DNA of 64,000 nucleotides from the NCBI RefSeq assembly GCF_008330225.1, contig NZ_CP042466.1, positions 1,560,501-1,624,500 on the forward strand, given 5' to 3'. Source of the stretch: Geobacter sp. FeAm09 (lineage in GTDB: Bacteria > Desulfobacterota > Desulfuromonadia > Geobacterales > Pseudopelobacteraceae). Each line of letters opens with the position of its first letter. Within the stretch, counting starts at the first letter, position 1. The notes below the pieces were generated by a model, which did not search any database, was not told the DNA's origin, and worked only from the letters and a program-made list of their open reading frames with translations. This document shows, in pieces, positions 49,068 through 64,000 of the stretch. Position numbers and translations under genes: made by a program.

Positions 49068-50504
49068 ATGACCGATACGCAAAAAAACCAGAAAAACGGC
49101 AAGGCGCCCCTTGTTCTGTTTGTCGATGATAACGCCGACTTCCTGGAAGAGATCCGTTTCGTGCTCCTTTCCAACTCCATCTGCGAAATGGTGACGCTCA
49201 CCGACAGCAGCCAGGTGCTGGCGGAGCTGGAAAAGGGCATCTACTCGGCCGTGTTTCTCGACTGGATCATGCCGGGGGTTTCGGGTGCCGACCTGCTGCC
49301 GGTCATCGCCCAGAAGTACCCGGCCCTTCCGGTCATCATCATGACCGGGGTCAGCGATGTGGATACGGTGGTGAACTGCATGAAGCAGGGGGCCATGGAC
49401 TACATCACCAAGCCCCTGGATTCGTCCCGGCTCATCTCCAGTATCAACAACGCCTTCAAGATCCTCGAACTCTCGAACCAGAACCAGCAGCTCCAGAACT
49501 ATCTCCTGGGCGATCCCCTGGCCCAGCCCGATGCCTTCAAGGATCTCCTGACCCGCAGCGACAAGATGCTGTCCATTTTCAAGCTGGTGGAGACCATCGC
49601 CCCATCCCGCTACCCGGTGCTCATCACCGGCGAAACCGGGGTCGGCAAGGAGTTGATCGCCCGGGCCATCCACAAGGCCAGCGGCCTGCAGGGCAGTTTC
49701 ACCCCCCTGAACGTGGCCGGGCTCGACGCCCATATGTTCGAGGATACACTCTTCGGCCACAAACGGGGCGCGTTCACCGGCGCCAACGAGCTTCGCCAGG
49801 GGTTGATCGCCAAGGCCCAGGGGGGAACCCTGTTCCTCGACGAGATCGGCGATCTGGCTCCCGAATCCCAGATCAAGCTGCTGCGGCTCCTGCAGGAGAA
49901 CGAGTACTACCGCCTCGGCTCGGATGTCCTCCTGAAAAGCGACACCCGGATCATCGTCGCCTCCAACCGGGATTTCAAGAAGCTGGTCGCCGAGGGACAG
50001 TTCAGGGAAGATCTCTACCACCGGATCTGCTACCACAAACTGCACATCCCCCCCCTGCGGGAACGGCGCGAGGATATCCTGCCCCTGGTCAACCATTATA
50101 TCAACGTGGCGGCCAAGGCCATGGGCAAGAGGGCTCCCAGGATCGCCGCGGAACTGCGCTGGCTGCTGGAAGACTACGAATATCCCGGCAATGTCAGGGA
50201 ACTCATCAACAAGGTGAGCAGCGCGGTCGTCGTCAACAAGACCGGCCTCTTGGTGCAGGGCGACTTCCCGGACCTGGCGGTCAAGTCCAGAACCATGATC
50301 GATGCCGGAACCAAGGTTGCCAACAGCCAGTTCAGCCTGCATGTGGTCTTCCCCACGTTTCCCTCCATGGGACAGATCGAGAAACTGATGTTCGAAGAGG
50401 CCCTGAAGGTTACGGGAGGCAAGAAGGGGCCGGCCGCCGACCTGCTGGGCGTGTGCCGCCAGACGGTGCAGAAAAAGCTTACCGAACTGGAAAAGATGAA
50501 CTGA
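49068..50504 (+). CDS. Sigma-54-dependent response regulator (NtrC family)
   Basis: This 478-residue protein has a receiver domain with phospho-acceptor Asp65 (VFLDWIMPGVSG). A linker leads to an AAA+ domain with Walker A GETGVGKE, intact sigma-54 loop GAFTGA and Walker B GTLFLDEIGD, and a C-terminal Fis-type helix-turn-helix (KGPAADLLGVCRQTVQKKL). It is convergent with, and only 20 bp from, the interrupted histidine kinase gene, which is therefore a candidate partner. AGGAGGG precedes the ATG. Confidence 0.93.
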   Translation: MTDTQKNQKNGKAPLVLFVDDNADFLEEIRFVLLSNSICEMVTLTDSSQVLAELEKGIYSAVFLDWIMPGVSGADLLPVIAQKYPALPVIIMTGVSDVDTVVNCMKQGAMDYITKPLDSSRLISSINNAFKILELSNQNQQLQNYLLGDPLAQPDAFKDLLTRSDKMLSIFKLVETIAPSRYPVLITGETGVGKELIARAIHKASGLQGSFTPLNVAGLDAHMFEDTLFGHKRGAFTGANELRQGLIAKAQGGTLFLDEIGDLAPESQIKLLRLLQENEYYRLGSDVLLKSDTRIIVASNRDFKKLVAEGQFREDLYHRICYHKLHIPPLRERREDILPLVNHYINVAAKAMGKRAPRIAAELRWLLEDYEYPGNVRELINKVSSAVVVNKTGLLVQGDFPDLAVKSRTMIDAGTKVANSQFSLHVVFPTFPSMGQIEKLMFEEALKVTGGKKGPAADLLGVCRQTVQKKLTELEKMN

Positions 50505-50524: not shown

Positions 50525-52146
50525 TCAGGCGGCCTGGGGGCCGGGCGGCGCGTCGGGGCCGGGGCTTGGGGCGTCGTCTGCGGCGGGTATGCTGATGGTG
50601 ACGGTCGTGCCCTTGTCCGGTTCCGATTCGAACACCAGCTGCCCCCGGTGTTCGGTCACGATGAAGTTCGATATGTACAGGCCGAGGCCGCTGCCGCCGC
50701 TTTCCATGCGGGTCGAGAAGAACGGCTCCATGAGGCGGCCCATGATGTCCGGCTGAATCCCCTTCCCGTCATCCCTTACGACGAGGGAAACCATCCCCTT
50801 CATGCGGTCATGGCCCGTGGTGATCGTTATGACGCCGTCCCGTGATTCCGGGATGGCCTGGATGCTGTTCAGGATCAGGTTGATGATCACCTGCTCCAGT
50901 TGGTAGCGGTTGCCGGTCACCGGGGGGAGTTCCGGGCAGGGCTCCTTCTGGATGGTGATGTTGCCGTGGCGTCCGTGGGCGCGGATAATGGTCAGGGCGT
51001 CGGCGACCACCTGGTTCAGGTCCACCCGGTCCTTGGCGTCGCCCTGGCCGCCCACGTTGTAGGCCCGCATATCCTGCACGACCTTTTCGATGCGTTCCGA
51101 GCAGCGGGCGATGACCTCCGCCGCCTTGGTCACCTCATCCCGCACCAGGCTGAATACCGCCCCCCCAGCACGAAATCCCCTTCCTCCTCCGCAACCCGTT
51201 CCAGTATGGGTATCGCGCTCTTCCACGTTTTGGCGACCTGCTGCCCCGCAAGCTTGATGGCGCCGTTGGGCGTGTTGATCTCATGGGCCATGCTGGAGGC
51301 CAAAAGCCCCAGGGAGGTCATGCGGTTGGTCTGGATCAGCTTTGCCATGATCTGCTGCTTTTCCTTCTGGACTTCGAGGCGCATGGCATCCACCAGTTGC
51401 TGTTGCAAGCGGCGGTTTTCCTCTTCCCGCTGCTGGAGCGAGGCCGCCAGCAGGCTGACGGCCTCGGCGGCCCGGCCCGGTTCGTCGTTGCTGACCGGAG
51501 CGATCCTGACCGTGTAGTTCCCCGCCCGCATGGCCTCCAGGCCGCGCATGAGGGCGCTGAAGGAACGGGTTACCTGGCGGAGCGCCAGGTAGCAGATGGA
51601 CGATACGGAGAGCCAGAAGAGAAAGGCCGTGGCGCACGCCATCATGATCAGGCGCCGGGTCCGGGCCTTGAGTTCGGTGGTGTCCAGGTCCAGGCGCACG
51701 CTGCCGATCAGCGCGCCCATGGGGTCCCTGCCGCCGCTGATGGCCGACTCCGGGGAGGAGCCAAGGGGGGTGCTGCGCACCTCCACGGTCCTGCTCAACA
51801 ATTCGCCGGAACCGCGGGCAGCCGGTTTGCGTACCTCGGCCAGGACCCTGCCGTCAGCGGTGCGGACCGTCAGGCTGTGGAAGTCGGGGGTGCGGGCGGT
51901 TTCCTGCGCTATCTGCATGAGCACGTCGCGGTTTTCGGCGTACAGGGGGAGACGGACGGTATCGGCCAGATGCGCCGCAATCAGTTGGCAGCGGTTGTCG
52001 GCATAGGTGCTTTGCTCGCGGATTTCGGTGACGATGTAGGCGGAGCCGAACAAAGCGGCCATGAGGGCGGTCAGCAGGGTGAAGATGAGGAAGAGTTTGA
52101 ATTGGAAGCTGGCGCGGAACGTTATGAATTGGGTGCGGGGCGACAC
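50525..52146 (-). pseudogene. Membrane sensor histidine kinase interrupted by a frameshift at a G7 tract
   Basis: The N-terminal part (GTG start at 52146) encodes a transmembrane helix, a periplasmic sensor region, a second helix, a HAMP-like segment, a coiled coil and a HisKA-like region with His in SSMAHEINTPNGAIK. That frame ends at 51130. The rest of the kinase (AVFSLVRDEVTKAAEVIARCSERIEKVVQDMR, then NLILNSIQAIP and GGSGLGLYISNFIV) is in another frame ending at 50525. The switch is at the C7 run (G7 in the gene) at 51160-51166; eight G would restore one frame. It is last in an operon with a TonB receptor and a periplasmic binding protein. Confidence 0.8.
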
Positions 52147-52147
52147 G

Positions 52148-53026
52148 TTATTCTCGTTGGTTCAACATGGCCCGTTCGGCCGATATGCCCAGGTGTTTCA
52201 GGACGCTCGGATTGGTTTTGAGCTGAACCCGGCGCGGGTAGGCCAGCGGGATGTCCGAGGCGTCGGCCCCCTTGAGGATGGCCGATCCCATGTCGCCCGC
52301 CTGCCTGCCCAGTTCCGAGCGGTCGATCTCCAGGACCGCCGCCGCCCCCAGGCCCAGATAGGCGCTGGCAAAGGAGACGACCGGCACGTTGTGCTCCTGG
52401 GAAAAGCGGAAGTAGGCCTCCACCGTCTCCCGGGCCACGGCCGTGGTGTCGGGCAGCATCCAGAGCGCATCGACCCTGCCGGCCAGGCCCGCAAGCTGGG
52501 CCTGGGTGTCCCGCGGGGTGGAAACCTCGCGCACCACCAGCTCGATCCCCATGCGCTGGGCCGCCTGGCGGGCCTGTTGCACGTACCAGCCGCTCTTGGC
52601 GGGATGGTAGATCAGCCCCACGTGGCGTTTTTTCATCCCCTGGAACAGGGAAAGGTAGCGCTCCGGCGGCGCGAACATGCCGATGCCGGTCAGATTGGCG
52701 TGGCCAGCGTGGCGGTTGTGGATGCCGAGGGAGATCAGGGCGATGACCGGGGTCTGGCGCAGTTTGCGGGCCGCTTCCAGGGCCCGGTCTCCCAGGGCCA
52801 GGACCAGGGCGGGCTGGTCTTCGCGGACGATGCGGCTAATGTCCACGTCGGCGTAATCGGCGAGCACGACCACCCGCTCCGACAATCTGCGGTTGGCGCG
52901 GAATCCGGCAAGGGCCTCCTCGAAGGCCGGATCGCGGCGGCTCTGGAGCACCAGCACGTCGTAGGCGTCGGCCGCCAGGGGAAGCAGCAGGGCGAATGAG
53001 AATATGAAGGCGGTCAGTATCCTCAA
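52148..53026 (-). CDS. Periplasmic binding protein of the ABC-substrate-binding (TrpX/PF04392-like) family
   Basis: This 292-residue protein starts with a signal peptide (MRILTAFIFSFALLLPLAADA). It has the two-lobed binding fold typical of the family (VLVLQSRRDPAFEEALAGF, PVIALISLGIHNRHAG, NLTGIGMFAPPERYLSLF, KKRHVGLIYHP). The start is TTG, overlapping the TonB-receptor stop, with GAGGGTG upstream; it is the only start that opens the signal peptide. No ABC permease or ATPase is nearby. The next gene is a histidine kinase, and at 61885-63720 the same type of domain is fused to a kinase, so a role as a sensor ligand-binding protein is likely. Confidence 0.85.
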   Translation of the reverse strand: MRILTAFIFSFALLLPLAADAYDVLVLQSRRDPAFEEALAGFRANRRLSERVVVLADYADVDISRIVREDQPALVLALGDRALEAARKLRQTPVIALISLGIHNRHAGHANLTGIGMFAPPERYLSLFQGMKKRHVGLIYHPAKSGWYVQQARQAAQRMGIELVVREVSTPRDTQAQLAGLAGRVDALWMLPDTTAVARETVEAYFRFSQEHNVPVVSFASAYLGLGAAAVLEIDRSELGRQAGDMGSAILKGADASDIPLAYPRRVQLKTNPSVLKHLGISAERAMLNQRE

Positions 53027-54942
53027 AAGCGCACCCTCATGCCGCCCTCGAACCAGCGGGAAGGATTGGGAGTATAACTGTCGTTGAACTGGGCGCCATT
53101 GAACAGGTTGTGTCCTGAGAAGAACACCTCCACGGCATTTCTTTCACGCTTAAAGATTGTTGCTCCCAGATGGAGATCCCACACCAGCCCATAATAACGG
53201 GCCAGATAGGACGGGTCCTGGTTCCACCAGATATGGCGGCCGGTCAGCACACCGCGGAATGTCGTATCGTCGTAATGCAGGGACAGTTGGACGGTATGGC
53301 GCGGCAGGCCGTATACCTGGGAACCGTCGAGGCTACGGGTGGTTTCGGTAAAGGTGTAGCCGGCCCCCAGTGAGGTGTTCCAGACTGGAATGGTGCGGGC
53401 TTCGATTTCGGTCCCTAAGGCAACCTGTTTTTCCGCGTAATATGAATTCGTGGCGAAGTTGTAGGTTTGGATGTCCCATTTCTGGTTGCGGAACAGGGTG
53501 CCCTTCAGCCAGAGGTAGGGTACCGACTGGCTCTCGATGCCGATCTGTGTGGTCCAGATCCGCTCCACATTGGTATTGGCAATATCCCGCAGGCTGTACC
53601 CCAATCCGGTGTACCCGCGCAGTAGAGTTCCTTCCGTAAGTCGCCAAACGAGGCCGAGTGATGGGCTGAAAGTATCCGTGCGCCCTGTGGTCCGGTCGAA
53701 ACGGGCGCCGGGAATGATAGAGACAGTTCCTATGTTGAGCGTATCGTTGAGATAGAAACCATGGTGTTTGATTTTGACAAAGCTGGTATTGCTGCCGTAG
53801 GCTAGATCCGCCTCGGTCTGTTCGTACACTCCCCCTATGACCAGCAGGTTGTTCTCTTCGCGCCAAGTAAGTTTAATCTCGCCGCCGTAGACCCGGTCGC
53901 GAAAACTGCGTTGGGGGTCTGCTGCACCGGTGCTGATGGCGCTGGAAAGATAGTCGGAACCATGGTTTAAATGACGGACAACAGCCTCGAAATCAATGGC
54001 ACCCGTCAGGGCTTTGTGCAGTCCGACAGAAGCGGTGAGTTGTTTGGCGTTTTCTTTTTCCTGGGAATCGGCCTCGGGCACATAGAGGTCACCCCGGTTG
54101 TCAGTCTTGATGTAGCTGATATTCCCCCACATCTGTCCCTGGCCCGGAATGTCCCAAGTAAGGCGGCCGAAAATATTGCGGCTGTAAACGCTGTGGTAGG
54201 AAAGAAGGCCGCCGGACCCGAGGTAGCCGCCGGACAGGTAATACCCCACCGGCCCGCCGTTGCCGGAGAGGGAAAGGCCGGTATCGGTGGTCCCTCGCTC
54301 ACCCAGGGAAGCATCTGCCGTTCCCCCCAGCTTACGTCCCTGTTCCGGGGAGTGGGTGGTGACGCTGATTACCCCGCCCAATGCTTGGCCCCAGGACGAT
54401 GAACCTGCTCCTTTGACGATCTCAATCCGCTCGATAACCCGAGCAGGGATCAACGCCGTGTCGGCAAAGTTGCCGCTGGTGTTGATAGCTACGCCATCCA
54501 CCAGCACCAATACGTGGTTGTAGTCGGAACTTTGAATTAACGTGAAGGATTGTCCACCGGGACCGCCCCGTTGCTGTGTCTGAATGCCGGGAATGGTGGC
54601 AAGTACATCGGCCAGGGTGTGGGCATTGATGGCCTCGATATCAGCGCTGGTAATGACGGTGACGTTTTCGGCGGTCTGGGAGAGCGGCTTGGGGGCGCGG
54701 GAGGCAGTGGACGCCTCTTCCTGCCAGGCGCTGAAGAGCCCCAGGGTCTCGTCCGGTTCTTCCCCCCATGCTAGGTAGGGGAGGGCGCCGAGAACCAGGC
54801 AAAGAAACACCAAAAAGGTGCTGATGGTATGTTGAGGTTTGACGAGTGACATGTTAGGATTCCGTGCGCGGGATATTAACAGAAACAAAGACTGAATGTC
54901 CAGTAACTTGGAAAGCGTCTGTATATTTAAATGTTTGTTCAT
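53023..54942 (-). CDS. TonB-dependent outer-membrane receptor
   Basis: This 639-residue protein imports a scarce ligand (iron chelate, cobalamin or similar; not identifiable here) across the outer membrane using TonB. The plug domain (about 70-190) contains ENVTVITSADIEAINAHTLADVLATIPGIQ, VLVLVDGVAINTSG and RIEIVKGAGSSSWGQALGGVI. The rest is a beta-barrel ending GGMRVRF with the terminal Phe. The start at 54942 is chosen for AAGGAG just upstream; it places about 30 residues before the signal peptide, so ATG at 54852 (MSLVKPQHTIS) is a reasonable alternative. It overlaps the periplasmic binding protein gene and is divergent from the peptide/radical SAM cassette. Confidence 0.88.
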   Translation of the reverse strand: MNKHLNIQTLSKLLDIQSLFLLISRARNPNMSLVKPQHTISTFLVFLCLVLGALPYLAWGEEPDETLGLFSAWQEEASTASRAPKPLSQTAENVTVITSADIEAINAHTLADVLATIPGIQTQQRGGPGGQSFTLIQSSDYNHVLVLVDGVAINTSGNFADTALIPARVIERIEIVKGAGSSSWGQALGGVISVTTHSPEQGRKLGGTADASLGERGTTDTGLSLSGNGGPVGYYLSGGYLGSGGLLSYHSVYSRNIFGRLTWDIPGQGQMWGNISYIKTDNRGDLYVPEADSQEKENAKQLTASVGLHKALTGAIDFEAVVRHLNHGSDYLSSAISTGAADPQRSFRDRVYGGEIKLTWREENNLLVIGGVYEQTEADLAYGSNTSFVKIKHHGFYLNDTLNIGTVSIIPGARFDRTTGRTDTFSPSLGLVWRLTEGTLLRGYTGLGYSLRDIANTNVERIWTTQIGIESQSVPYLWLKGTLFRNQKWDIQTYNFATNSYYAEKQVALGTEIEARTIPVWNTSLGAGYTFTETTRSLDGSQVYGLPRHTVQLSLHYDDTTFRGVLTGRHIWWNQDPSYLARYYGLVWDLHLGATIFKRERNAVEVFFSGHNLFNGAQFNDSYTPNPSRWFEGGMRVRF

Positions 54943-54987
54943 GGATTGCTCCTTGCCTACCCCTGGAGAAAAGGACAAATTGGGTGC

Positions 54988-55016
54988 TTGACACCGGTTC
55001 TCTCAATTTTTTTGAT
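54988..55016 (+). promoter_or_regulatory. Possible sigma-70-type promoter of the peptide/radical SAM cassette
   Basis: TTGACA (54988-54993) is followed after 17 bp by TTTGAT (55011-55016), about 78 bp before the peptide gene. The -10 match is weak. Confidence 0.4.
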
Positions 55017-55093
55017 GGCGTGACGGGCTGAATATGTGCAAAAAGCCAGCCGGATAGCGTTGCAGCATACTAAAACGAAAGGTGGTGAGGCGA

Positions 55094-55192
55094 ATGCGTG
55101 AAGTTCAGGAAGATTTGATGGTATTGGAAGAGGGGCATGAGCAGGGAGTTGTAATGACATGCTGTTCCACAAATGCAGCTTCAGTCAGGTAG
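55094..55192 (+). CDS. Short precursor peptide (geopeptide-type RiPP precursor candidate), 32 residues
   Basis: The frame starts MREVQEDLMVLEEG, an acidic leader-like segment, and ends in VVMTCCSTN followed by a short tail to residue 32. Adjacent cysteines are at 23-24. A ribosome-binding site GGTGAGG lies immediately upstream of the ATG. The gene is followed by an intergenic hairpin and then a SPASM radical SAM enzyme, the standard layout of radical SAM-modified peptides. From memory, Geobacter genomes carry a family of such short peptides annotated 'geopeptide' beside their maturase. The modification and biological role are unknown to me. Confidence 0.7.
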   Translation: MREVQEDLMVLEEGHEQGVVMTCCSTNAASVR

Positions 55193-55203
55193 TAAACTAA
55201 GCA

Positions 55204-55237
55204 TGACGGGAAGGGGGCCCCCTTCCCGTCCTCTTTG
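55204..55237 (+). terminator. Hairpin between the peptide gene and the radical SAM gene
   Basis: The perfect 13-bp stem GACGGGAAGGGGG / CCCCCTTCCCGTC with essentially no loop is followed by CTCTTTGTTG. It lies 11 bp after the peptide stop and could end most transcripts there, giving much peptide and little enzyme. Confidence 0.75.
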
Positions 55238-55300
55238 TTGTAGAGCGCGTTGTTGAAAGTATTTTAAGTAGATAGAAATGGTGAGGGGACGGCTGCATTA

Positions 55301-56608
55301 ATGGAACTGACACACTATCTGAAAACCTATCCCTGTGCCGACAAACCGGGCCGGGTATTGGCCGTGGCCACCCGGCGCTGCGCGGTGCTGGAACTGTCCG
55401 AAGGCCTTCTGGAAAAGGCCCGCACGGGTGACCTGGGGGAGCGGGAGCGGGACACCCTGGCGCGCCTGGGGGTGCTGGTGCCGGACCGGGCCGGGGAGCG
55501 GGAGGAGATGCGGCGGACCTTCGAGACCATCAATGGGGAAAACCGCCACTTCGCCGCCCTGGTGACCCTGACCCTGGAGTGCAACCTGGCCTGCGGCTAC
55601 TGCTTCGAAGACCCCTTCCGGGGGCGGTTCGTCATGGCGGACGATACCGCCGGGATGCTGGTGCAGCGCCTGACGGAACAGATGGCGGCGGGGCGGGACG
55701 TGACCGTGGATTTCTACGGCGGCGAGGCCCTGATGGCCCTGCCGCTTTTGCAGCGCATCGCCGGCCGCCTGGGGGAGGCGGCCCGGACAGCGGGTGTGGT
55801 TTTCAGGTTCAACATCATCAGCAACGCCACCCTGCTGACCCGGCCGGTGGTGCAGGAACTTCTCCCCCTGGGGCTGGCCGCCGTGAAACTGACCCTGGAC
55901 GGCCCCCGGGACATCCACGACCGGCAGCGCCCCTTTGTCTCCGGCAAGGGGAGTTTCGACACCATCGTGGCCAACATCGGGGCGGTCCACGACCTGGTGC
56001 CGGTGGACCTGGGTGGGAACTACACCCGCGACAACTATCGGCGGTTCCCGGAGATGCTGGATTATCTCACGGCCCAGGGGATCGCCCCGGAGAAGCTGAA
56101 GACCGTGGGCTTTGCACCGGTCATCCCCAAGGCGGACGGTACCGTTTCCGGGGATTTCGGCACCGCCTGCGCCTCCACCAGCGAACCCTGGATGATCGAG
56201 GCCAGCCTGTTCCTGCGGCAGGAGACGATACGGCGGGGCTTCCCGGTGCCCAAGCTCAGGGCGGCCGCCTGCATGATCGAATTCGAGCACGACCTGGTGG
56301 TGGCCTATGACGGCTCCCTCTACAAATGCCCCGCTTTCATGGGGCGGGAGGAGTTGCGGATCGGCTCCCTGGCCGAGGGGGTAGGGGATTACGCCGCGTC
56401 CCACAACCTGGATGTGTGGAAGAACGACGAATGCCTGGAGTGCGCTTACCTGCCCATCTGCTTCGGCGGCTGCCGTTTCCTGAGCCTGCTGCGCTCCGGC
56501 GCCATCGAGGGTGTGGACTGTCGCCGTGCCTACCTGGATACGGCCCTGGAACAGCTCGTGCGCCAGGATCTGGCCATGGGACGGCCAAAGACCGAGAGCC
56601 GATGTTAA
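55301..56608 (+). CDS. Radical SAM/SPASM peptide maturase (geopeptide maturase type)
   Basis: This 435-residue enzyme probably modifies the upstream peptide using a radical generated from S-adenosylmethionine. The radical SAM cluster is held by C94, C98 and C101 (LECNLACGYCFED). A C-terminal SPASM region supplies further cysteines at about 324 and 343, then 378, 381, 387, 391 and 407 (CLECAYLPICFGGCRF) for auxiliary clusters. The N-terminal 90 residues may bind the precursor leader. The stop codon lies inside the first of three TGTTAA dyads. The family is recognised by architecture; the product is not known. Confidence 0.88.
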   Translation: MELTHYLKTYPCADKPGRVLAVATRRCAVLELSEGLLEKARTGDLGERERDTLARLGVLVPDRAGEREEMRRTFETINGENRHFAALVTLTLECNLACGYCFEDPFRGRFVMADDTAGMLVQRLTEQMAAGRDVTVDFYGGEALMALPLLQRIAGRLGEAARTAGVVFRFNIISNATLLTRPVVQELLPLGLAAVKLTLDGPRDIHDRQRPFVSGKGSFDTIVANIGAVHDLVPVDLGGNYTRDNYRRFPEMLDYLTAQGIAPEKLKTVGFAPVIPKADGTVSGDFGTACASTSEPWMIEASLFLRQETIRRGFPVPKLRAAACMIEFEHDLVVAYDGSLYKCPAFMGREELRIGSLAEGVGDYAASHNLDVWKNDECLECAYLPICFGGCRFLSLLRSGAIEGVDCRRAYLDTALEQLVRQDLAMGRPKTESRC

Positions 56609-56620
56609 TTTTGTTAACAT
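56602..56620. repeat. Palindromic dyad 4 (TGTTAA-TTTTG-TTAACA)
   Basis: ATGTTAA-TTTTG-TTAACAT spans the stop codon of the radical SAM gene. It has the same design as the dyads at 17.05-17.19 kb. Confidence 0.7.
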
Positions 56621-56666: not shown

Positions 56667-56687
56667 AGTGTTAAAAAAATTAACACT
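56667..56687. repeat. Palindromic dyad 5 (TGTTAA-AAAAA-TTAACA)
   Basis: Arms AGTGTTAA / TTAACACT flank five A residues. Apart from the spacer orientation it matches dyad 2. Its centre is 66 bp from dyad 4. Confidence 0.7.
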
Positions 56688-56747
56688 ATGTGGCTGTCCG
56701 TATTTTTTAAATCAATTCGATAGGTTGTCTAATTGTTTTGAAAGAGC

Positions 56748-56762
56748 GTTAAAAAAATTAAC
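56748..56762. repeat. Palindromic dyad 6 (shortened: GTTAA-AAAAA-TTAAC)
   Basis: Core GTTAA-AAAAA-TTAAC has imperfect outer arms. Its centre is 78 bp from dyad 5. Confidence 0.6.
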
Positions 56763-56943
56763 ATCCCCTCTCCATCGCCCCGTTTCCCCGCATAATGCTC
56801 CCTCCGAGGCCGCAGCCGGCCGGCATTGCGGTCCTGCTGCCGTGATTTTCTCCGCGCCTTTGTGGCTCTGTGGCCTATTTGCCGTGTTGTGGTAGTATTG
56901 CATAAACGGTCCACGGGGTGTCGCGGACAGGAGGAGGGACGTC

Positions 56944-61884: not shown

Positions 61885-63720
61885 TCACCTGGCCGGCAGG
61901 CTGAAAAAGAAGGTGGAGCCTTTATCCGGCTCCGATTCGAGCCAAATCCTTCCCCCGTGCAATTCCACAATCCGTTTGCAAACTGCAAGACCGATGCCGG
62001 TGCCGGGATATTCATCCCGGTTGTGCAGCTTTTTGAAGAGCGAGAAGATCTTTTCCCGGTACTCGGGGGCGATGCCGATGCCGTTATCCTGCACCGAAAT
62101 GATGTGCCGGTCTTCGACGCAGCGGCACTCGATGGCGATCACGGGCGTTTGTCGGGAAAATTTCAGCGCATTCTCCAGGAGGTGCCGCAGCAGCATGACC
62201 AGGAGCGCCCGGTCGCCGGTGATCTGCGGGAACGGGGCATGGGTGACGCTGGCGTCGCGCCGGGCGATCTGCTCCTGCAACCCGGCCAAGGCGCCCGTTA
62301 CGATCTCCGTGCCGTCCAGGGGGGCGCGCCGTATGGGGTGCCGGCCGAGGTTGAGGTAGGTCAGCAGGTCGTTGAACAGGTGTTTGAGATGGGAGACGTT
62401 GGCGACGATGATGCCGATGAATTCATCGGCGTCCCGGTCGAGCTTTCCCGCATAGCGTTTTTCCAGGAGCTGCACGAACCCGCCGATGACCCGCAGGGGC
62501 TCCTGCAGGTCATGATAGGCCAGCATGTTGAATTCCTTCAGTTCGGCGTTGCTCTTTTCCAGTTCCTGCGCCTTGACGGCCAGCTCCCGGGCCGCACGGC
62601 GGCTTTGGGTGATGTTCACCGCCAGCAGGGTGATGATCATGCCCAGGCTGGCTATGACGAAGATCGTCGTCCACACCAGCCTGGTGTACCTCTCGTAGAA
62701 CGACACCGGCTTGTTGACGATGGTGCAGCCGTAGGGAAGCAGGGACAGGGGGATATGGAAACGGGTGAGTTGGGTGTAGTCGAATACCACCCGCGTTGTC
62801 TGGCCGGTGTAGACCGGCAGGGTGGCGATATCCCGGCCATTGAGGATTTCCAGGGCCATTTCCGCGGCTTGCGCCCCGTGCTGCTTCCCCCCCAACAGGC
62901 ACCCGCCGATGATGCCGTGGCCGATGCGCTCCTCGTGGCCGCCGTACACCGGGACCGGGGAGCGTTCCCCCAAAAGCTGCGCTATTTTGGTATGGTCGAA
63001 TACCCGCCCATCCCGGTCCCGGCTGTAGGAGAGCGCCAGGACGAGACTGTCCGCCGGAAGTGACGACAGTTGCCGCAGCATATCGTCGGTCGTCAGGTTG
63101 TCCATATAGCGGATGGCAACCGGCTCCTTGAATCCCTTCAGATCCTCTTCCGCCTGTCTGCGGGTCGCCAGACCGGTTGAGGTGTAATCGTGGATGACGA
63201 AGATCTGCCGCGTCGCGGGATGCACCTTGAGCATCAACGCCACGGTACCCCTGACGTCGAGCCGTTCGGCAACGCCGGTCACCCTGCTTTGCCCCTTGAG
63301 CATCGCCGGCTCGAAGCCGTTGATCCCGCAGAAGACGAGCGGAGCGCCGGGAAAGATGGCGTCGCGGTATTTCAGGGCGAAATCCAGGGCCGGATTGTCC
63401 ACGGCGATGACCAGGGGGATGGTCACGTGCCGGTACTTCTGGATGAACAGGTCCCGGATTTTGCCGAAGTGTTCCATGTTCGGGAAGTATTTGCAGTCCA
63501 GGTACTCCACGGTCGGTTCGATGTCGGGCCGCGCCCGGCGCAGCGTCTCGACGATGCCGATGAGTTCGTTGTCCGACCAGCTGTAGTAGGGGTGATAGGA
63601 ATTGAGGATCAGGATGCGCGTCTTCTGCTCCGCGCTGCCGGCGGCATGGGCCGGGCCGGCAGCCGCCAGCGTCAGCGCCGTGAACAGGACGACGAGGTAT
63701 GCCGCGCCCAGGTGCCTCAT
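61885..63720 (-). CDS. Sensor histidine kinase with N-terminal periplasmic ABC-substrate-binding-like domain
   Basis: The 611-residue protein begins with a signal peptide ([26 protein letters not shown]). An ABC-substrate-binding-like periplasmic domain (about 35-315) follows, with [29 protein letters not shown] and [18 protein letters not shown]. Next are one transmembrane helix ([20 protein letters not shown]), a coiled coil, HisKA with His about 401 in [15 protein letters not shown], and HATPase with DNGIGI and [14 protein letters not shown]. Start ATG at 63720 overlaps the stop of the upstream kinase. It should sense a small periplasmic ligand and signal to the adjacent regulators. Confidence 0.92.
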
Positions 63721-64000
63721 GCCGCGTCCCCCTTTTCCGTAAGGTCCTTTTTTATGGTGAACGTGAAACAGCTGCCCCGGCCCGCTTCGGATGCCACCCC
63801 GATGCGGCCGCCGTGGCGCTCGACGATTTTCCTGCAGATCGCCAGCCCGATGCCGGTGCCGGGGTAGGCGTCCCGCCCGTGCAGCCGCTGGAAGATCTCG
63901 AAGATCCGGTCGAAGAATTGGCCGTCGATGCCGATGCCGTTGTCCGTGACGCGGAACTCCCATGCCACAGGGGTCTCGGCGCAGGCAACATGGATGCGGG
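63717..64000 (-). CDS. C-terminal fragment of another sensor histidine kinase, cut by the window edge
   Basis: The visible 94 codons encode the end of an HATPase domain ([20 protein letters not shown], then [20 protein letters not shown]) and finish ending EKGDAA. It overlaps the next kinase start by ATGA, so the two are coupled. Its sensor and HisKA domains lie beyond the right edge. Confidence 0.85.

Follow-up and report, generated by a model that had tools for sequence, protein, structure and literature searches.

The radical SAM peptide cassette in the window, the whole stretch of 64,000 nucleotides that was analysed, is one half of a recurrent locus whose other half encodes a TonB-dependent receptor, a periplasmic binding protein and a sensor kinase (Table 1). 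The peptide-enzyme pair had been proposed as an undescribed system; NCBIfam already names its family and, judged from sequence, the new part appears to be the coupling to an uptake-and-sensing module. We lean slightly towards a geopeptide-type RiPP locus coupled to such a module, in which the ligand would be the locus's own peptide, acting as a pheromone or a metallophore. If the ligand is the peptide, the locus would be a RiPP loop by which Gram-negative anaerobes take up and sense a product of their own. An orphan family also becomes testable, with linked genes that offer a candidate ligand for the receptor, a readout in kinase and regulator, and a reason for the peptide.

Table 1. Features of the geopeptide locus (positions in the window)
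Feature	Coordinates	Strand	Remarks
Sigma-54-dependent response regulator, NtrC type	49068..50504	+	tail-to-tail with the kinase
Sensor histidine kinase	50525..52146	-	split by a frameshift near 51157-51160
Periplasmic substrate-binding protein, ABC_sub_bind family	52148..53026	-	PF04392, E 4.6e-18
TonB-dependent outer-membrane receptor	53023..54978	-	Pfam Plug, E 8.8e-22; longest ORF, internal start likely
Possible sigma-54 -24/-12 element	55037..55052	-	CGGCTGGCTTTTTGCA, toward the TonB operon
Geopeptide precursor	55094..55192	+	32 aa, ATG start; homologues in family loci, purifying selection
Hairpin, G+C-rich, terminator/attenuator-like	55205..55230	+	between precursor and enzyme
Radical SAM/SPASM maturase, TIGR04280	55301..56608	+	435 aa; 656 bits against a cut-off of 400

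The maturase places the cassette in a known family. The NCBIfam model TIGR04280, 'geopeptide radical SAM maturase', matches residues 1-425 well above its curated cut-off; among the best 25 of the 71 families found at E<=10, the others fall far below their own cut-offs, except the general SPASM domain model. In a 25-sequence alignment the three cysteines of the CxxxCxxC motif at residues 94-101 (C94, C98, C101) are invariant, as are the SPASM cysteines C343, C381, C387 and C391, while C324, C378 and C407 are nearly so. The family score and these cysteines bear out the sequence-only reading of the pair as a SPASM-type radical SAM RiPP cassette resembling 'geopeptide' systems, and both the 32-residue frame and the enzyme frame are present where that reading had placed them. 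The nearest named relative by maturase is Oryzomonas japonica (87%).

An AlphaFold model of the maturase, built on a 25-row alignment, has a mean pLDDT of 89.8. Its N-terminus is predicted to form strands at residues 7-11, 18-23 and 28-33 followed by helices at 34-42, 47-55 and 63-71, with pLDDT of about 95. Three strands and then helices is the order of the PqqD-like RRE leader-binding domain, and the model suggests an RRE-like region here; a Pfam scan of the maturase matched no RRE model. The closest solved structures, 5why and 5wgg, are entitled thioether bond formation in sactipeptides, and we take them to be CteB. Nearly all of the model aligns with such CteB-type thioether-forming maturases (447-470 alignment columns, gaps included; TM-score 0.66; rmsd >9), at an identity of about 20%. 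Among PapB-type ranthipeptide maturases, the PapB model matches with E 3.4e-33, yet reaches 115 of its 340 bits, and the CX3D/E motif of PapB-type ranthipeptide precursors is absent from the present peptide, whose CCSTNAASVR end has no acidic residue after the cysteines.

Genomes with TIGR04280 above its cut-off number 46 of 76 in the host's family, 101 of 141 in its order and 31 of 395 drawn across the phylum; by similarity to the enzyme at E 1e-60 or better, 103 of the 141 genomes of the order carry it. The spread across the phylum contradicts the earlier view that such systems are restricted to Geobacter-like bacteria. A plasmid search for the maturase returned none. Geobacter-type bacteria are model metal reducers, and the present reading, if true, would describe a very common RiPP system among them. 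Neither 'geopeptide' nor 'TIGR04280' occurs in any of the 5.39 million openly searchable papers covered, and no description of the coupling of a geopeptide locus to uptake and sensing was found among them. The catalogued TIGR04280 pair has the same enzyme family and an adjoining short Cys-pair peptide, and its model describes the enzyme only. What the locus adds to this entry is the link to the TonB receptor, ABC_sub_bind protein and kinase, absent from the database results and the literature consulted, together with the spread across the phylum.

The precursor reads MREVQEDLMVLEEGHEQGVVMTCCSTNAASVR. The ORF list gives its frame 36 residues when counted from an upstream GTG, and a purine-rich GGTGGTGAG stands ahead of the ATG. 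An acidic leader with a conserved VLEEG precedes a core that ends in the cysteine-bearing segment named above. The 32-mer itself has no match among NCBIfam or Pfam models. TIGR04281, tried as a model for the precursor, was rejected, as it is the unrelated family peripla_PGF_1; its presence in 97 genomes is uninformative on the geopeptide precursor.

Precursor conservation was assessed at 66 loci, comprising 65 TIGR04280 places in the host's family and the window. A regular expression for the motif seeded an iterated peptide HMM, which was run on the 25,772 stop-to-stop frames of these loci and gave 60 matches at E<1e-3, a few of them one gene counted in two overlapping stretches. Every match lies on the strand of the radical SAM gene and upstream of a TIGR04280 gene, and no other frame among the 25,772 reached E 1e-3; the motif shared by the matches is partly built in by the seed, their strand and position are not. 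A precursor homologue stands within 1.3 kb upstream of 57 of the 66 TIGR04280 genes. All 57 carry an [VIL][LI]xxG leader, with CC near the end in 54 and CxC in 3. Counted from the leader glycine, the CC comes 6-11 residues on, and the end of the peptide is 7-10 residues further; the residues flanking the CC are very variable, with tails ranging from basic to hydrophobic.

Nine loci gave no HMM match. Four have less than 200 nt of upstream DNA (L172, L203, L205, L209), L207 has a CxC peptide at E 0.45, and L147 is a second maturase copy in its genome, without its own precursor. The upstream regions of the other three (L201, L202, L204), read by eye, hold no recognisable cysteine peptide; a promoter-like block is retained, as is a hairpin in L201 at least. 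These three are related TIGR04280 places that have a kinase and a sigma-54 regulator and lack a receptor, and by eye each is preceded by a sigma-54-like GGGCATACATGTTGCG box.

Uncorrected pN/pS is 0.13-0.55 in 11 close precursor pairs from three groups, and 0.20-0.31 in 7 of them; the window's precursor enters a single pair, over its first 18 codons. A short frame followed by a terminator-like hairpin could in principle be a chance ORF or merely a regulatory leader peptide. Because its amino acids are conserved with an excess of synonymous changes, and because the same enzyme adjoins it across the phylum, we give that explanation practically no weight. On this comparative evidence the 32-residue frame is a real precursor, and it may have a regulatory role as well. 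Both checks proposed with the initial reading, for a short ORF upstream of related enzymes and for conservation at the codon level in close relatives, therefore came out in favour of the precursor.

Between precursor and enzyme lies a hairpin that had been described as an almost loopless 13-bp structure. The hairpin stands, with three overlapping matches in a terminator scan against 0.4 expected; its geometry does not, as the best model has an 11-bp stem and a 4-nt loop. Over 55190-55300 as a whole, the predicted structure gains only modest stability over shuffled versions (z -1.94, equalled by 8 of 200). A stem of at least 8 pairs with at least 5 G-C pairs occurs between peptide and enzyme in 49 of the 57 loci, a count made without a shuffled control. 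Such a hairpin would leave more precursor mRNA than enzyme mRNA.

The receptor gene is divergent from the precursor, with 115 nt between the start of its longest ORF and the peptide. The modelled fold is closest to BtuB, which has no bearing on the peptide as a ligand, and siderophore, ZnuD and PQQ (PqqU) receptors are also among the structural matches. The host genome holds one partial paralogue of the receptor and three remote paralogues of the ABC_sub_bind protein. The first piece of the kinase gives a weak HAMP match (E 3e-4) below its cut-off; the frameshift was located by a two-piece tblastn comparison with an intact 540-aa relative in L152 (G002), and may be a real mutation or a sequencing error. 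Pfam recognised neither exporter nor peptidase among 16 proteins scanned between 43.1 and 64 kb of the window. The initial statement that no exporter or protease is adjacent agrees with this, and it overlooked the divergent TonB receptor. Elsewhere in the window, 61888-63963 on the minus strand encodes a 692-aa chain in which Pfam finds ABC_sub_bind, HisKA and HATPase_c. This natural fusion unites protein types that the geopeptide module encodes in separate genes, and indicates that ABC_sub_bind proteins can feed kinases directly.

The same partners recur in relatives. When ORFs of at least 90 aa from the 66 family stretches were clustered, only four further families occurred in more than 5 stretches: the TonB receptor in 57, ABC_sub_bind in 50, the histidine kinase in 48 and the sigma-54 regulator in 19, the kinase and regulator clusters having been formed by single linkage, so that they may include members foreign to the module. 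No gene family from outside the module reaches more than 5 of the 66. The smaller clusters that were inspected, which include the window's anthranilate synthase and DAHP synthase genes (Pfam), are presumably housekeeping genes or antisense artefacts. No linked exporter or peptidase (ABC, C39) was recognised among the families common to at least 4 of the 66 stretches. Greedy gene calling replaced the radical SAM gene by an antisense ORF in the window and four loci, and counts of that gene use search coordinates instead. By coordinates, a TonB homologue lies within 6 kb of 58 of the 66 radical SAM genes; of the 8 others, five are at contig ends and the rest are L201, L202 and L204.

The linkage extends beyond the family. 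Twenty hold-out loci, taken from the three remaining families of the order and not used in building any model, have the TonB receptor in 20, the binding protein in 20, the kinase in 17 and a precursor in 15 by HMM; the other 5 precursors were found by eye, four of them A/EVEILDEGNN...CC-like and one FEIIDEG...CC. A set of 24 further loci, which overlaps the family genome set and is not independent (L253 and the contigs of the hold-out loci L290, L300 and L305 are in it), has the receptor in 23 and the binding protein in 22. Outside the family, 29 genes above the cut-off were listed and 23 examined, mostly from other classes and two from the same order. Of these 23, 22 have the receptor nearby, the exception being on a contig of 4.3 kb; 20 have the binding protein and 22 a precursor, which the HMM detected at E 0.05 or better in 15 and inspection by eye in 7; in L283 the HMM places the precursor on the receptor's strand. 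Below the family cut-off the link fades, with TonB in 4 of 10 loci.

Gene order varies around this constant content. The divergent arrangement is the rule in the host's order, several distant families have a co-directional TonB-precursor-radical SAM series with a divergent binding protein and kinase, and a precursor subtype in the host's family (…CAFEGPLAACC…) has the receptor on the opposite side from kinases and a binding protein. That the linkage survives rearrangement argues for function. Pairwise distances of the radical SAM enzyme and the receptor correlate with r 0.765 (n=50); when paralogues were swapped within ten multi-copy genomes, the 500 trials averaged 0.396 and peaked at 0.696, and none reached the observed value. 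The corresponding correlations are 0.568 for the binding protein (n=44) and 0.496 for the kinase (n=39), each equalled by 1 of 500 shuffles. At the level of sequence distances this shows a unit inherited together, and is no proof of protein contact; co-inheritance of linked genes is enough by itself to produce such correlations. In L288 (G082), 17.7 kb hold the precursor in four copies and the maturase in two, alongside a single unit of receptor and binding protein.

Receptors also occur without a maturase. After merging of fragments, 59 of the 85 TonB homologues in the family adjoin a TIGR04280 gene and 26 are not near one; 20 of the 26 were examined. Eleven consist of receptor and binding protein with unrelated genes opposite (L236, L237, L239-L241, L246, L247 and L249-L252, of which L249 and L250 are remote and L251 has a broken receptor), and show that the receptor module can exist by itself. 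In L234 and, at a contig end, in L235, a precursor is present with the maturase not in view; L238 and L244 have a truncated maturase at a contig end, and L242, L243, L245 and L248 begin near a contig end. Receptor-only modules are found for example in G012, G053, G111 and the congener G004, a draft of 83% completeness; such loci may be cheaters or products of decay. In the G004 locus (L233), receptor, binding protein and kinase are kept, and an apparent short maturase remnant was seen by eye in an antisense ORF.

These loci bear on a rival account, in which the sensed compound comes from outside, as a nutrient, a metal complex or a molecule of another species, and the geopeptide is made in response, its genes being linked to those of receptor, binding protein and kinase by co-regulation. 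The ligand could be external because 11 of the 20 examined unlinked receptors keep their binding protein beside unrelated genes, and the lack of a conserved exporter in the family stretches agrees with this. Yet most receptors of this kind adjoin a maturase, the pairing follows paralogues within genomes, no other gene family accompanies the module in more than 5 of the 66 stretches, and receptor-only genomes fit piracy of a public product too. We consider external sensing rather unlikely. The recurrent linkage of receptor, binding protein and kinase suggests instead that the product is probably outside the cell, taken up and sensed, which shifts its likely fate away from the earlier suggestion that it may stay inside.

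Under the preferred reading, that the ligand is the locus's own peptide, the maturase would bind the VLEEG leader via its N-terminal RRE-like region and install a Cys-based, thioether-type crosslink at the CC pair, a crosslink suggested by the thioether-forming maturase to which the closest solved structures belong. The trimmed peptide would leave the cell by an unlinked route; secretion is an assumption, because no conserved exporter or leader peptidase was found. The TonB receptor would import the peptide, either free or carrying a metal. In the periplasm the binding protein would capture it, the sensor kinase would report the capture, and the sigma-54 regulator would adjust the receptor operon. 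This complete loop, from release through re-import and capture to a kinase-regulator signal, serving signalling or metal scavenging and leaving receptor-only genomes as eavesdroppers or cheaters, falls a little short of even chances in our estimate. The frameshifted kinase of the window counts against the preferred reading, as do L201, L202 and L204, which have neither receptor nor recognisable precursor, and L147, which lacks a precursor of its own.

Two readings of the product itself were weighed against this evidence. In a metallophore version of the preferred reading, the CC or CxC core would bind copper, zinc or another soft metal and be retrieved by the TonB receptor, as in methanobactin. 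TonB receptors classically carry metal chelates, all 57 precursors have CC or CxC, and the structural matches include siderophore and ZnuD receptors; however, no gene family recognisable as metal-linked is common to the loci, and the residues around CC vary widely, so that this version is doubtful. A bacteriocin-like antimicrobial or a PQQ-like cofactor precursor is improbable. A self-uptake receptor and a sensor kinase would be needless for an antimicrobial, neither a conserved exporter nor an immunity gene was seen, and the core seems too variable for a single cofactor, even though many radical SAM RiPPs are antimicrobials and the receptor's structural matches include PqqU, which binds PQQ.

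The proposed loop has partial parallels in known systems. LuxP/LuxQ-type systems place a periplasmic binding protein beside a sensor kinase, and methanobactin is a RiPP with a dedicated TonB receptor for uptake; the likeness to both is one of arrangement. The present locus is also comparable to the itf cluster of Bacteroides, which, in the available text of PMC11002830, comprises a radical SAM enzyme, a YcaO protein, a C39 transporter and the TonB transporter ItfF. The two share a radical SAM RiPP and a TonB-dependent transporter; the itf cluster differs in having its own YcaO and ABC/C39 exporter, and no binding protein-kinase pair is seen in that text. TonB-related proteins at graspetide loci are predicted to mediate export in the accessible part of PMC8939145, and in that of PMC4289311, on RiPP mining in anaerobes, Geobacter appears only for a lasso peptide.

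The gap between receptor and precursor holds candidate regulatory sites. The sigma-54 element of Table 1 scores 9.3 of 11.9 in a home-made matrix and is also found in three congeners. In loci that bear the regulator, this gap holds 9 sites at >=9.3, or 2.15 per kb against 0.385 elsewhere, four of the nine coming from one genus; in loci without the regulator there are 6, at 0.55 against 0.38 per kb. The greater density in the gap of regulator-bearing loci is suggestive. Likewise suggestive, as an element upstream of the precursor, is a bipartite T(A)RCA-N15/16-GTCYA, chosen after viewing the sequences, which occurs 58-90 nt upstream of the precursor in 28 of 57 family loci against a background of 0.25% of windows; it is absent before the precursors of the window's genus. 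A block of similar kind, seen by eye in L295-L298 and ahead of a second gene in L300, overlaps palindromes like GTGYTAA-TTARCAC. A sigma-70 promoter picked by eye (TTGACA at 54988, TTTGAT at 55011) fails the promoter scan's rule and was set aside.

Rfam gave one weak chance match around the window locus, and no riboswitch at its gathering thresholds before the precursors of nine chosen loci. The subtype-b precursors (LVVLEKGNDCAFEG...CC; L182, L184, L188, L189, L194, L198, L208 and L177) share a leader block like CCGACGGG..CGAGG.CGTCCCCYGCGG shortly ahead of the start. The one such leader searched in Rfam, that of L184, gave two chance matches only, and the consensus fold of ten leaders is weak. 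On the far side of the cassette, between the maturase and an alpha-amylase gene, lie three AT-rich palindromic GTTAA...TTAAC sites (56603-56618, 56667-56685 and 56745-56763). Two of them are near-identical copies of AGYGTTAAAAAAATTAACA, and they are operator-like in appearance.
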